The notes below the pieces were generated by a model. The model worked only from the letters and a program-made list of their open reading frames with translations, was not told the DNA's origin and searched no databases. From an uncultured Saprospiraceae bacterium (lineage in GTDB: Bacteria; Bacteroidota; Bacteroidia; Chitinophagales; Saprospiraceae), in NCBI GenBank assembly GCA_937872385.1, contig CALMSO010000093.1:1-64000 (forward strand): a DNA stretch of 64,000 nt. Reading direction: 5' to 3'. This document shows, one piece after another, positions 2,051 to 55,409 of this stretch. A program made the translations under genes and the position numbers. Every line of letters starts with the position of its first letter. The stretch's first letter is position 1.

Positions 2051-5000
2051 CTAAAATACGACTTGCAAACTCAAGGTATAAGTTCTCGCCAGCGGATAAT
2101 TGAACGCATCTACAAAAAACACGCCGGGGTCGCCACCGGGCGTACGCAAATCACTCCCACGTCCGTGGCGCAAGCGGTTGCTCAGGGTATTCTCGTCGCG
2201 GGGCACGCTGCTAATGTCCGGATGAAAACCGCTATAACGGGTTTTGGTAAATAGATTCCGCCCGATGAGGCTCAAACGCAGGCTTTCGGCAAAAGCGACG
2301 GTTGTAAAATTATAGGAAATCGCCGCTTCGCGCAACATGAAAAACGAGCCGTCCTCCACGAAATGGTTATTGGCAACCAGCCCATTGTACAAGCCTTCGC
2401 TGCCGTAAAAGCCGGCCGCTATATCTGAATATTGGCTGACATCGCCGTGCCGAAAATCCCGGTAGAGCCATTGTTTCGTCAGGTTATAAATCTGCCCCCC
2501 TTTTTTCCAGTCAAATAGCGTGTATAACTGCAGTCCTTTATACCCCAAATGATGCGCAAAGCCCATCCGGAAGTCCGGATTAATATCACCAATAGACTGT
2601 ACCAAAGGATTCCCATTTTCATCCCTCAGCTTGTAAGGGCGCTCTTGGGGAGTGCCAAGTTGATCCTTGCGCACCACGTAGCCCGCTGCATTGAGCGTGT
2701 AATCGTCTGGATTGACATTTTCCTGCGCCGAAAGCTGATTCAATTTGGTAGCGAATACCTCACCGACCATGGTACCAAAAGCGCGGCCGGCTTCCATCAG
2801 AAACAGCGAAGAACCTTCAATGCCAGGGCCCGTCACGTAGGCTGGCACGTCCAATTGTATAATTTGCTGGCGCACCCGATCGAAAGTGGTGTACACATCC
2901 CAGCGAAAATCCGGTATTTTTACCTTGAAAAGTCGCTTGAGGTCTGTATTCAAACCCGCTTCAAAAACTTTGCCCTCCATGGTGCCCGCGTTGCGCCACT
3001 GCCCACGAAAACCGGCGGCCGCCGAGAGTGGCGTCAGCAAAATCTGGTCTTCGGTCACGATGCGACTGTAATTAAATTCTAACGCAAAAGCCTTGCCGAA
3101 CCGCAGGTCCACGCCTACTTCGGTTTCGGTAGAATAGGCGGGTTTCAAAAACGCATTGCCGAGGGTATTTTTAGTCGTAACGCCGCCAATAAGTTCAAAA
3201 GTCTCGAAGCGCTGCTCAAAACCTGGTCGAATACCAGAAGTACCCGTAGAAGCCCTGATTTTCAGTTCCTGAACGCCTTTGATGCGAATATCTTCGGTCA
3301 TGCGGTAAGCGGCACTGGCGCGGTAATAATTTGCCCAGCGGTTTTCGGGACCAAAAAGTGAAGTGCCTTCCCTCCGAAACAGCCCGCTGAAAATGAATTT
3401 CTGTTTGTAATCTGCATCGCCAATGAGAAAGCCGCTGTAGCCCACCACATCTTGGCGCTCGGAGGCAACGAAAATGCGGTTGCGCACATTGTCAAGCGAG
3501 CGAATGCCCGCCACGGCGAGGTTTTCGCCAATGGCATCGTTGAAACGGGTGCTCAGGTCTTCGTACAAAAAGCTGGCTCGTAGTGCCGTATTAAAACCGA
3601 TGAACGGCCGCCGGAATGCGACATCTGCCCGGGAAGTAAAATAACTGCTTTGCCGGTTGCTCCGATGCAACCCGCCGCCAGCGCTGTTTTGCACACCAGC
3701 AGTAAGCTCAGTTCCGAAGCCCGGTGGCGGACTGGTGCTCAGATAGCCTTTATGGACAAAATGTTCAAAATCATTCACTGCCCGGTCGAGTGCAGCGCTA
3801 TAGCTAAAGGTAAACCATTCGTTGAGGTAGTAATTAGCGGTAAAATTGCCCATTAGGCGATTGCGACGCACGGTCTGGCTGGCGTTGGCGCGGTCGTAGC
3901 GCGGATTAGTAATGCCGGCTCCGGTGTTGTCAATTTCCCAATCGTGGGGTGAGCCATCCTCGTCATTGGGTGCATCGAGGTCAAAAATCGGCGTTATCAA
4001 TAGCGTATTGGACAAAAAAGTGCCCGGGCCATTGGCCGCAGGCTCCAGCAGGTCTTGGGTAGAAGTCGAATACATCGAACTCAATTGCAACTCTAACTTG
4101 CGGCTGATGAGATGATCGGCATTAGCACGAAAAGCGTGCCGGGTGTAGCCGTCAAAATTTTGCAAAATGCCTTTATCCTGCAAGCGCTGGGCCGAAACCA
4201 TAAAGTTGGTCTGATCCGATTTGCCCTCCAGGGCGAGATGGTGCGACTGAAAAGCGCCCCGTTGAAAAAGTACTTCCTGTTGGTAATCCTGCCAATTGGG
4301 CAAAGGCGTGGCGAAGGTCTGCGCCGCCGTCGGGTCGCCCAGCACGGGCTGCGGCCCCTCCGCCCGAATGATTTCCCGGTGCGTCATCGTATTGAGGTTC
4401 AGCGTATTCACTACTTCTGAAGCCCCGATTTCGTTACGATACGTAATGCGCGTATCGCCCACATTGAGCTGGCGGCCGCGTTTGGTAAAAATTTGTATAA
4501 CCCCGTTAGCTGCCTGCGAGCCATAAAAAGATGTGCCCGCCGAGCCTTTCAAAACTTCCACCCGGTCTATGTCTTCGGCATTCAAATCCGCCAGCGTGCT
4601 ATTGACAAAAATACCGTCCACAATCAACAGTGGCTGCTGACCATTGGCGATAGCATTAGCCGAGCGCACCTGAAAAAACGCACCCTGCCCGGGCTGCCCG
4701 CTCACCGTATTGACCCGAAAACCGGGTATCTTGCCTTGCAAACCAATACCGACATTGGCCGCAGGCACTACATTCAAAGCTTCGGCATTGATATGCCCCA
4801 CCGAGTAGCTCATGATTTTAGCTGAGCGCCCTGCGGCTGTACCCGTCACAATTACTTCGTCTATCTCAGCGACGGCTGGTAGCAACGCGATGTTGATTTC
4901 CGAGCGGCTGTTGACGCGAATGGACTGTGTCCGAAAACCGGTGTAGGAAAATACCAATGTGTCGCTGGCGTGTGTGGAATAGAAATTTTGTCGCACCTCG

Positions 5001-11805: not shown

Positions 11806-11890
11806 TGGCATCTAAAAATCTATCATCTATTATCTAAAATCTATCATCTAAAATCTGGCATCTGGCATCTGGCATCTGGCATCTAAAAAT
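11806..11890. repeat. Heptamer array of TnnnATC units
   Basis: Units TGGCATC, TATCATC, TATTATC and TAAAATC alternate and include a run of four TGGCATC at 11856-11883. The register is essentially a strict seven bases, with one 8-base unit. The array ends 9 bases before the ATG at 11900, so it occupies the leader of that gene. Confidence 0.85.
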
Positions 11891-15574: not shown

Positions 15575-15764
15575 AATTTCTTCAGTTTTTTCGAATTGAA
15601 TTGGTTAGACCATAAAATTTTAGTCACTACCCTCTCATCATACAATGTGCCAAACTATCTTCGGCTGCCATTTTTTCAGGTGCATAGCATCAAAACCTTG
15701 TTTTGCGTTGAATGAAGTGCCATAAACAGATTCAGGTGACAAAATTGCCCTGACAAGATGTACC

Positions 15765-15904
15765 GCGAACCGCGAACCCCGAACCGCGAACCGCGAACCG
15801 CGAATAGCGAACCCCGAACCGCGAATAGCGAACTCCGAACCGCGAATAGCGAATAGCGAATAGCGAACCCCGAACCGCGAATAGCGAATAGCAAACCCCG
15901 AATA
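15765..15904. repeat. Array of exactly 20 heptamer units
   Basis: The 140 bases divide without remainder into 20 units of seven: mainly GCGAACC, CCGAACC and GCGAATA, with GCGAACT, GCAAACC and CCGAATA once each. Because 7 is not a multiple of 3, open frames through it read as repeated FAIRGSR/SLFAVRG peptides. These are artefacts of the repeat, not genes. Confidence 0.93.
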
Positions 15905-20649: not shown

Positions 20650-20840
20650 TTGTTATTTTCGCTGTTCGCATTTCGCTATTCGCCACGCAGATAGCAGGAT
20701 ATAATACGATTTACGATTTACGATTTACGATTTACGATTTTGTAAAAGTTTGAAAAACAAGGTTTTGAATATGAATAAATACGGCATTTTCAATTGAAAA
20801 AGATATTACTTTTTTCAACCCTTCAACTTTTCAACCCTCA
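20650..20840. repeat. Composite dispersed repeat with CGATTTA heptamers
   Basis: The heptamer CGATTTA is repeated four times plus part at 20707-20741. It is flanked by a block containing CGCCACGCAGATAGCAGG and, downstream, TTGAAAAACAAGGTTTTGA and TTTTCAATTGAAAA, ending in pyrimidine words. The whole arrangement, about 180 bases, recurs inverted at 31137-31340. Its middle is related to the inverted-repeat elements at 16288 and 48798. Confidence 0.75.
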
Positions 20841-31136: not shown

Positions 31137-31340
31137 AGTTGAAGGATTGAGAAGTTGAAGGGTTGAAAAGTTGAAGGGTTGAAGGAAGTAATATCCTTTT
31201 CAATTGGAAACGACGTACTTATTTGTACTCAAAATATTGTTTTTCAAAGCTTTACAAAATCGTAAATCGTAAATCGTATTATATCCTGCAATCTGCGTGG
31301 CGAAAAGCAAACAGCCAATAGCGAACAGCTATATAGAATA
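31137..31340. repeat. Composite dispersed repeat, inverted copy of 20650-20840
   Basis: AAGTTGAAGGGTTGAA is iterated, followed by TTTTCAATTGGAAACGACG, TCGTAAATCGTAAATCG and GCAATCTGCGTGGCGAAAAG. Read on the minus strand, this is the same order of modules as at 20650-20840. The 339 bases between the flanking genes hold nothing else recognisable. Confidence 0.75.
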
Positions 31341-36996: not shown

Positions 36997-37073
36997 CGAA
37001 CGGTGACTTGCATGGATAGTCAAACAGTAGTAAAACCATGAATACGTCACAACTCATTGAAATTGGTATTATA

Positions 37074-37200
37074 CGATTTACGATTTACGATTTACGATTT
37101 ACGATTTACGATTTACGATTTTTTAAGGTATTGAAAATCAGAATTTTAAACACAAACAAACACCTCACGTTCAATTGAAATTCAATTGAAATCGGTATTA
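37074..37200. repeat. CGATTTA heptamer array with degenerate dispersed tail
   Basis: Six perfect CGATTTA units plus a partial seventh occupy 37074-37122. The following 80 bases (AATTCAATTGAAATCGG) are a degraded version of the sequence following the array at 20707. Beyond them, to 37265, are fragments of the TTTTCGC-type words seen in the other blocks. No gene is recognisable in 36888-37288. Confidence 0.8.
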
Positions 37201-54087: not shown

Positions 54088-54118
54088 TTTGTTCATTGTC
54101 CGTGTTGTTGTATTTTTG
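54088..54118 (+). promoter_or_regulatory. Bacteroidota-type promoter for the HTH gene
   Basis: TTTG (54088-54091), a 19-base spacer and TATTTTTG (54111-54118) match the consensus perfectly. The leader to ATG 54159 is about 35 bases, which supports that start over the upstream ATG at 54096. Confidence 0.75.
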
Positions 54119-54158: not shown

Positions 54159-54353
54159 ATGTCTAAAAAAGTCGTAATAATAAATGGTTATCGAACCCGG
54201 AAAGAAGTAGCTGAAATATTGGATATTAATGAAAGAACGCTTTATGAGCTACTAAAATCTGATTATTTCAAAGATAAAATACCTGCCAGAGCACGGCTCT
54301 CGCCAGCACATCAACGACTTATTTTTGATTATTGTGGGATTGAGTATAAATAA
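54159..54353 (+). CDS. Small excisionase/MerR-like HTH DNA-binding protein
   Basis: The 64-residue protein consists almost wholly of a winged-HTH-like segment: GYRTRKEVAEILDINERTLYELLKSDYF, with the pattern of excisionase or helix-turn-helix type 17 domains. It ends IFDYCGIEYK. ATG at 54159 is chosen over 54096 because the promoter at 54088-54118 lies downstream of the latter. Codon use is A+T-rich. Such proteins usually regulate or direct mobile DNA, but no integrase is adjacent. It is the first gene of a 1.4-kb A+T-rich islet and its target is unknown. Confidence 0.8.
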   Translation: MSKKVVIINGYRTRKEVAEILDINERTLYELLKSDYFKDKIPARARLSPAHQRLIFDYCGIEYK

Positions 54354-54478
54354 AATACTTTACATAGCAAAGAGCAACTGAAAATTTGTACACAACGGAT
54401 AAAAGCCTGCCTTTTTTTTTACTCCCCTCAAAAACCATCAGGTAGCGTACTTTTTGACACTTGGTAAATAGCATGAAT

Positions 54479-54538
54479 CTCCGATTATCTCCGATTATCT
54501 CCGATTATCTCCGATTATCTCCGATTATTTTCCGATAT
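54479..54538. repeat. 10-bp tandem repeat abutting a promoter
   Basis: CTCCGATTAT is repeated five times perfectly (54479-54528), with a degenerate sixth unit to 54538. The array covers the place where the upstream promoter box should be and overlaps the -7 box TATCTTTG at 54536-54543. Confidence 0.92.
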
Positions 54539-54543
54539 CTTTG
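54536..54543 (+). promoter_or_regulatory. TAnnTTTG box for the Cys-rich lipoprotein gene
   Basis: TATCTTTG is a full -7 match about 40 bases before ATG 54585. The position expected for TTTG is inside the 10-bp repeats and reads as repeat sequence. Confidence 0.6.
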
Positions 54544-54584: not shown

Positions 54585-55409
54585 ATGAAAAATCTTCTTT
54601 TTCTGTTTTTCCTCGTTTGCATTTTTGGTGCATGTAGTAATTTACAAGATAGCCAAAAAATGACAGAAGGTTTTGCTGCTTCTGAAGTATTTGAAGTACC
54701 CAAAGTATTAATTGGTGCAAAATTAGGCAACATCCCTTTGCCTGATCATACGATTGTAAAGTATATGGATGAGTGGTCTGTACAATTACAATTACCTGAG
54801 CATGTATATGTGTATGTAGAGGATGAAAATGGCGAATTTTACAGTGCTTCTTCTGTTTGTTATACTTGTGATTGTTCCGGTGGGGACACCGGATGTAATG
54901 TACTTTATTATCAAGGTAGTTTTGCCTGCTCAGAATGCGGCGGCAGTTGCACGGGTCAGCGCTCTGCTTGCGATGAAGATCATCAGCGTAATATTTCGAA
55001 TGATCGCTTTTTATTTGTAGATTTCTCAGCAGGGACTCAATTCATTGATAACAATACCGATACGAAAAAGTTATATACTGCTACTTCTTTCTTTTTTGAT
55101 ATACCAGAAGTGCAACAGGCTATAAAAACATTACATGAGAAATATTATGGCACAACAGATGTAGATGAATTTATGATTCAAAATGCTCGTATTGTAGGCT
55201 TGAATATATTTGGTGTTTTAGTAGGTTATCCAATGTCGGAAAAGACTTCTGATTTCGCTCGCTCAATGGATAGCGATGATGGGGTTAGTATAGCTTGCTC
55301 GTGCATGTCGGGTTCCAGCGGATGTAAATACAAGAAAGGATTTGGTGGGGTGCACTATTGTGAAGGCGGCAGTTGTACTTCATGCCGCATGGAAGTGGAT
55401 TCAGAGTAG
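54585..55409 (+). CDS. Cys-rich lipoprotein with a duplicated Cys motif
   Basis: This 274-residue protein resembles no family I know. It has a lipoprotein signal with the cysteine at 17 (CIFGACSN), so it is membrane-anchored. Two Cys-rich segments share a pattern. C95-x-C97-x6-C104-x10-C115-x2-C118-GGS-C122 is in the first. C238-x-C240-x6-C247-x11-C259-x-GGS-C264-x2-C267 is in the second, and both read GGSCT. They could form disulfide knots or bind metal. The intervening 100 residues are beta-like. The gene is A+T-rich, unlike its flanks, and its promoter is preceded by the 10-bp tandem array. It may be an acquired surface gene. Confidence 0.75.
   Translation: MKNLLFLFFLVCIFGACSNLQDSQKMTEGFAASEVFEVPKVLIGAKLGNIPLPDHTIVKYMDEWSVQLQLPEHVYVYVEDENGEFYSASSVCYTCDCSGGDTGCNVLYYQGSFACSECGGSCTGQRSACDEDHQRNISNDRFLFVDFSAGTQFIDNNTDTKKLYTATSFFFDIPEVQQAIKTLHEKYYGTTDVDEFMIQNARIVGLNIFGVLVGYPMSEKTSDFARSMDSDDGVSIACSCMSGSSGCKYKKGFGGVHYCEGGSCTSCRMEVDSE

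Follow-up and report, generated by a model that had tools for sequence, protein, structure and literature searches.

BldC of Streptomyces is a 68-aa protein without an effector domain which, in the available sections of its structural description, binds DNA with one protomer per direct repeat in a head-to-tail arrangement, the number of repeats being variable (PMC5859096). Its helices span residues 14–21, 25–34 and 51–60 with two wing strands between, and within the recognition helix Lys26 and Arg30 touch bases, with Arg30 reading the terminal C-G pair of AATTXXXX(C) (PMC5859096). The protein acts mainly by repression, while some of its genes are activated, according to a second study (PMC6428758), and was placed in HTH 17 in the corresponding part of a paper on RdfS (PMC11963761). 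RdfS and phage Xis are small winged-HTH proteins that form head-to-tail DNA filaments of the kind proposed for the system reported here, but they are recombination directionality factors, and RdfS is described there as carrying one more helix at its N-terminus and as lacking a consensus motif (PMC11963761). For classical MerR proteins, the BldC paper describes palindromic sites, each occupied by a symmetric dimer that is held together by a coiled coil (PMC5859096). In the literature searched, with subscription journals and preprints lying outside it, no prior description of a system such as the present one was found.

The locus lies in a 64,000-nucleotide stretch of DNA (hereafter the window) from contig C93 of a 4.85-Mb Saprospiraceae genome in 113 contigs. 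Its features are as follows:

54111..54118, + strand: candidate −7 box of the HTH gene itself, TATTTTTG, a TAnnTTTG match read in the window with a putative function
54159..54353, + strand: ORF for a single-domain HTH protein of 64 aa with recognition helix NERTLYELLK, residue 30 being Glu
54477..54526, + strand: five exact 10-bp putative operator units, ATCTCCGATT (minus strand: AATCGGAGAT), in the register obtained by aligning 42 unit families
54529..54538, + strand: degenerate sixth unit, TTTCCGATAT, read directly, shifted by 1 bp and overlapping the −7 box
54536..54543, + strand: predicted −7 box of the lipoprotein gene, TATCTTTG, starting 9 bases past the last exact unit in the ATCTCCGATT register
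54585..55409, + strand: ORF for a Cys-rich lipoprotein of 274 aa (ATG at 54585), the presumed regulated gene

The first-pass annotation had read the same five units in the register CTCCGATTAT (54479–54528) and described them as perfect repeats accompanied by a perfect TAnnTTTG box. This was confirmed by direct reading, by Tandem Repeats Finder (54477–54540, period 10, 6.4 copies, score 105) and by shuffling, the exact lag-10 run being the longest in the window with 42 bases against a maximum of 11 across 200 shuffles. The further statement that the units end at the box holds for the degenerate sixth unit, which runs into TATCTTTG, but not for the exact units, which stop short with the box following 9 bases later. 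No match to the lipoprotein was found in Pfam or NCBIfam. By eye, it has two mutually similar Cys-rich stretches (residues ~92–125 and ~238–268), which are also like the homologue at locus L074. Other intergenic arrays in the window, with units of 7 and 8 bp, are a class apart from the 10-bp arrays. They include TACGATT arrays at three places (20705–20740, 37072–37121 and 31257–31278), ACCGCGA ×17 (15762–15881), ATCTGGC (11853–11884) and TATTCCCC/TTCAACCC (327–459).

The best Pfam match of the HTH protein was HTH_17 (E = 1.2e-4), which fails the Pfam cut-off, and a PDB sequence search gave chance matches only. Its AlphaFold2 model (pLDDT 86.5) is filled by helices at residues 14–20, 25–32 and 49–59, and Foldseek with this model returned no match with E < 0.001. 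VIA-align placed IF2 subdomains at the top (Z up to 8.1), followed by the MerR-like HiNmlR (5.7), RacA (5.7), pSK1 Par (5.1) and BldC (4.0), the alignment to BldC 6amk (2.7 Å, 48 aligned) being level with those to other MerR-like chains. A second family member showed the same structural neighbourhood (6amk, Z 3.8, 2.7 Å, 46 aligned); in both models the helices fall near the residue positions of those of BldC and the wing strands are absent. A profile of 37 members gave no BldC chain among the best 60 of its 79 matches. The structural ranking therefore suggests a fold that is MerR-like in kind and not BldC in particular. The MerR-like winged HTH fold, common to classical MerR, RacA and HiNmlR, is among the best structural matches; membership of the classical MerR proteins, which act as symmetric dimers at a palindrome located between −35 and −10, was ruled out, as the sites are direct repeats and the protein is too short for a coiled coil.

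Like BldC, the window protein is one small HTH domain without an effector or dimerisation domain, and its presumed operator is a direct-repeat array of varying unit number in which each unit covers roughly one helical turn (10 bp here, 9 bp in the BldC crystal repeat). The optimised whiI site of BldC, CAATTCGGACAATTCGGACA, has TCGGACA in common with the consensus obtained here, WWTCGGACAW (available sections of PMC5859096). The sixth residue of the recognition helix covaries with a C at the matching end of the unit and is, by helix register only, a possible counterpart of Arg30; the window protein has Glu at this position. BldC is described as one pleiotropic regulator with imperfect 9-bp repeats at scattered sites (same sections of PMC5859096), whereas here a genome has several paralogues, every one followed immediately by an array of its own with regular 10-bp spacing and phasing with TAnnTTTG. 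By this analogy, the system probably works in the manner of BldC, and its protein is a possible member of the BldC family.

As read from sequence, the window locus is one case of a recurrent module consisting of a gene for a single-domain HTH protein, a 10-bp direct-repeat array, a predicted TAnnTTTG promoter and a predicted exported protein. Dozens of relatives have the same apparent layout, with unit sequences that are different yet seem to match their own HTH protein. The genomes searched were Saprospiraceae in a wide sense (naming inferred), including Phaeodactylibacter xiamenensis, which NCBI assigns to Haliscomenobacteraceae, order Saprospirales; its locus consists of an HTH gene, TGTCCCAAAC ×3 and TATATTTG. 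With the window protein alone as query, matches among 150 family genomes were confined to its own and the sister genome, and a profile built from six HTH proteins was needed to find the short HTH genes family-wide. This yielded a first set of 59 loci, with long-frame matches and fragments excluded. Profile matches in frames of ~430 aa were set aside as presumed Fis/NtrC-type regulators, judged by their length, and nineteen of them, together with one arbitrary stretch (L108), served as control loci.

A lag-10 run score of at least 12 within 400 bp of the HTH gene was found at 17 of the 59 loci and in 0 of 60 control segments. The same test at the other lags from 5 to 19 gave 0 to 3 loci, and lag 20 gave 5; a weaker detector found 21/59 loci versus 0/118 controls. 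The first set was then enlarged by five loci, giving 63 scored, with an array defined as a period-10 score of at least 8 within 200 nt 3′ of the HTH stop. Such arrays were present at 24 of the 63 loci, with counts of 1, 1, 0 and 0 for periods 8, 9, 11 and 12 and 0/79 in controls. TAnnTTTG was present within 200 nt on the 3′ side on the same strand at 33/61 loci and on the opposite strand at 5/61 (shuffles: mean 6.9, maximum 14). Array length across the modules ranged from 3 to 8 units. An export heuristic was positive for the next gene in 30/44 cases beside arrays, 37/55 without an array and 16/54 control ORFs, many of the latter being spurious; export tracks the HTH module and not the array in particular.

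Hold-out predictions were fixed in writing before scoring. Matches were found in 102 of 398 genomes, and 73 loci came from genomes not previously used, of which 70 were left after three repeat contigs had been dropped. Period-10 arrays were present at 30 of these 70, with counts of 1, 1, 0, 0, 0 and 0 for periods 7, 8, 9, 11, 12 and 13, and TAnnTTTG lay within 200 nt on the same strand at 36/70 and on the opposite strand at 4/70. A rule that Arg two residues before the invariant Thr pairs with CCCA in place of CCGA had held at 18/18 in the first set, the position having been picked after looking, and held at 12/15 in the hold-out (p = 0.089 by loci, 0.032 by families). The hold-out counts thus confirmed the linkage of HTH gene and array and the promoter, and the CCCA/CCGA rule only in part. 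Loci without a scored array made up 39/63 of the first set and 40/70 of the hold-out, and several of the score-negative loci carry degenerate arrays by eye.

Beyond the family the HTH gene is rare, being found in 4/149 genomes in a class-level search and in 2/395 phylum genomes with 15 candidates scored per genome, the own genome being counted in both. No clear array was seen at a Chlorobiota locus (L126) or at L130 and L131, which encode transposase-like proteins. Upstream of the HTH gene, a (CTTAC)n array was observed at L034 and L127, a 12-bp array, AATTTTACTGCC ×5, at L071 and an 8-bp array, AAAACCTT ×4, at L033.

Within the genome of the window, a two-unit pattern (at most 3 mismatches) was placed 18 times forward and twice in reverse, always within one of five arrays, namely that of the window and four on contig C57, with no placement for the control pattern. 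One C57 array adjoins another HTH gene, whose product is 64% identical, and a gene for a 182-aa lipoprotein comes next. The other three lie upstream of genes for small exported Cys-rich peptides (both properties judged by eye) and large lipoproteins; a DUF4221 protein is one of the large lipoproteins downstream of a C57 array. A broader three-unit pattern (TSNCCGA at 10-bp spacing, at most 2 mismatches), designed after some of its arrays had already been seen, gave 19 placements at nine places with overlaps counted, including the window, three on C57, C59, C37, C111 and one stray on C7, and its control gave 0 forward and 1 reverse. Four of these nine clusters (C93, C59, C37 and C111) adjoin HTH genes of the same family, and a fifth HTH-linked array (C57) was caught by the two-unit pattern and missed by the three-unit one. 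A further TTCGGGAAGA-like 10-bp array of ~7.7 units occurs at 4198–4274 of locus L014 (contig C57), upstream of a gene whose product is a small, Cys-containing exported peptide, and no adjoining HTH gene was seen. It should also be noted that the HTH-array modules L024 (sister genome G001, contig C298) and L026 (own contig C86) head operons that encode a very large protein of outer-membrane type along with a member of the GLPGLI family (TIGR01200), and that the L053 target is likewise GLPGLI.

The comparison of proteins with their units drew on 57 arrays, reduced to one for each family at 55% identity (42 families), whose units were aligned for register and strand without the use of protein data; the consensus was WWT(C/G)GGACAW (WTGTCCGAWW on the opposite strand). 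In a crude Mantel-type test, protein similarity and unit similarity were not significantly related (p = 0.10), and the register alignment and per-position tests were adopted after this result had been seen. Correction over every pair of positions left three residue-base pairs: column 4 with helix position 1 (p = 0.007) and with position 2 (p = 0.04), and column 7 with position 6 (p = 0.009). Arg at helix position 6, residue 30 of the window protein, occurs with C at column 7 in 28/32 families, and non-Arg residues in 0/10 (p = 7e-7); Asn occurs with A in 4/5 and the Glu of the window protein with G. Tyr at helix position 1 occurs with T at column 4 in 5/5, versus 2/37 of the others (p = 2.5e-5). 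The tests of columns 4 and 7 were discovered on the pooled sets and split afterwards, the position-6 pairing then giving p = 4e-4 in the first set and p = 0.0012 in the hold-out.

The position-6 effect persisted at 50% and 45% clustering (p = 1e-5 and 4e-4) and stood at p = 0.1 at 40%, where just 5 groups are left. On a poorly resolved tree of the 42 proteins, the Arg label has to change ~9 times and shows no stronger clustering than labels that were shuffled, and shared ancestry therefore does not account for the covariation. A similar pattern is seen in the own genome, where the array beside the Glu-30 protein has CTCC in 5/5 units and that beside an Asn-30 paralogue has TTCC in 3/3; the three arrays without an adjacent HTH gene have CTCC in 3/3, 3/6 and 1/8 units. 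The covariation is the strongest evidence that each HTH protein may read its adjoining array.

The spacing between array and promoter was analysed for the 30 main-orientation arrays that have TAnnTTTG no more than 80 bp away. The box follows the last unit at a distance of 9 or 10 in 7 arrays, 18–20 in 18, 29–31 in 3, 4 once and 70 once. By family, 21/23 fall in a single 3-bp phase class (p = 1.3e-9), the window distance being 9; the 70-bp distance of L088 is counted in phase, probably without meaning, and without it the figure is 20/22. The seven plus-oriented arrays with a box showed no clear phase (p = 0.06). The argument of the first-pass annotation, that ten bases are about one helical turn and that whole units would keep the same face of the helix, is thus borne out across the modules, with array-to-box distances of 9, 19 or 29 bp, ±1. 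The spacers between arrays and boxes differ in sequence. Some of the equal phase may stem from shared ancestry in which whole units were gained or lost, but indels of other sizes must have been rejected.

In a flavobacterium, TAnnTTTG is the sigma-A −7 box and occupies −12 to −5 (PMC9723704). On this basis, the last unit would span about −41 to −32 where the distance is 19 bp and about −31 to −22 where it is 9 bp. A TTG starting 19–23 nt upstream of the box is present in 5/25 phased array promoters; for TTG at −33, array promoters and the HTH genes' own promoters showed no clear difference.

In the sister species G001, the sole other genome of the genus searched, the syntenic locus encodes homologues of the lipoprotein (58% identical) and the HTH protein (70%) with TTCCGATTTT ×4 between, against five units and a degenerate one in the window. 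A second G001 locus matches the C57 module, one orthologous array having 2 units versus 8 in the own genome. A third module has a degenerate array only, and the protein it encodes is remotely homologous to the window lipoprotein (24%, E = 5e-10). For the suggestion that gain and loss of units form an analogue switch, the support consists of unit counts that differ at orthologous loci between species; graded control of the promoter by unit number is possible.

The linkage of HTH gene and array, the covariation of helix and unit and the fixed phase indicate that the array is most probably an operator of the neighbouring HTH protein. From these computed results we infer binding, oligomerisation and regulation, and we consider it likely that the array is filled head-to-tail by this protein, in phase with the lipoprotein promoter, and controls that promoter. 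Judging from the sequence comparison, each 10-bp unit would be one site for the 64-residue protein encoded just upstream. By analogy with BldC, one protomer per helical turn would bind head-to-tail along the direct repeat. The bound proteins would then make up a short filament along one side of the helix, at a constant phase relative to the −7 box of the lipoprotein gene, and this filament would control the promoter. The phasing favours contact with the polymerase and hence activation, a sign of control that is put forward as a guess, if a mildly favoured one. An earlier reading of the units as activator sites for the neighbouring HTH protein is well supported, if indirectly, as to predicted HTH sites, through family linkage and helix-unit covariation, and not as to the word activator.

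The same operator and protein could instead repress, the filament covering the −33 region and the spacer and excluding RNA polymerase until the HTH protein drops off. This reading is possible but rather doubtful. With the box placed at −12 to −5, the units of the 9-bp class, the window included, do extend as far as about −22, and BldC itself mainly represses and activates only a subset (available part of PMC6428758), but steric repression needs no helical phasing and 21 of the 23 families keep phase. The scarcity of an upstream TTG (just 5/25) also suggests a weak promoter needing help, a weak point of this argument being that the HTH promoters are not clearly better.

The remaining explanations dispense with the neighbouring HTH protein as the reader of the array. 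The tract might be a slippage-prone spacer in the manner of a contingency locus, changes in unit number shifting the DNA upstream and so tuning or switching the promoter without a binding protein of its own, and the perfect one-turn units adjoining the −7 box and the 8 versus 2 units at orthologous loci in sister species would suit this. It is nevertheless unlikely, as enrichment is seen for period 10 only and beside this HTH family only, unit bases covary with the recognition helix, and the other arrays are imperfect and so poor substrates for slippage. Somewhat less probable still is that the array is a site for another protein, the HTH gene being uninvolved or itself one of the targets within that operon; binding of the HTH protein is predicted from sequence comparison and some arrays precede operons without an adjoining HTH gene, but the units covary with residues in the helix of the adjacent HTH protein, with about nine separate changes at one residue. 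Selfish or neutral short tandem repeats, of which the genome has many as 7- and 8-bp units, including the numerous intergenic ones in the window, seem the most improbable source, given that four of nine three-unit clusters and a fifth array are HTH-linked, that the control pattern gave 0 forward and 1 reverse, and that helix covariation and phasing are unexpected for neutral repeats.

An operator read by the neighbouring HTH protein may, more tentatively, be part of a lineage-wide repertoire in Saprospiraceae-type bacteria, a proposal that is plausible without being the safer assumption. In such a repertoire, regulator-array pairs would be mutually specific with a simple residue-to-base code, unit number in each phased filament would set the output of one exported-protein operon, and copies of an array would recruit further operons, as on contig C57. 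If this is true, sequence alone would assign a target, an operator and part of a recognition code to a large set of unnamed HTH genes in environmentally abundant bacteria. The arrays would represent dozens of natural experiments on how one domain achieves specificity through repetition, and on a possible tuning of transcription by unit number. As the pairs look mutually specific, they would be usable as gene-control parts for Bacteroidota, and regulons would be predicted for exported proteins of unknown function.
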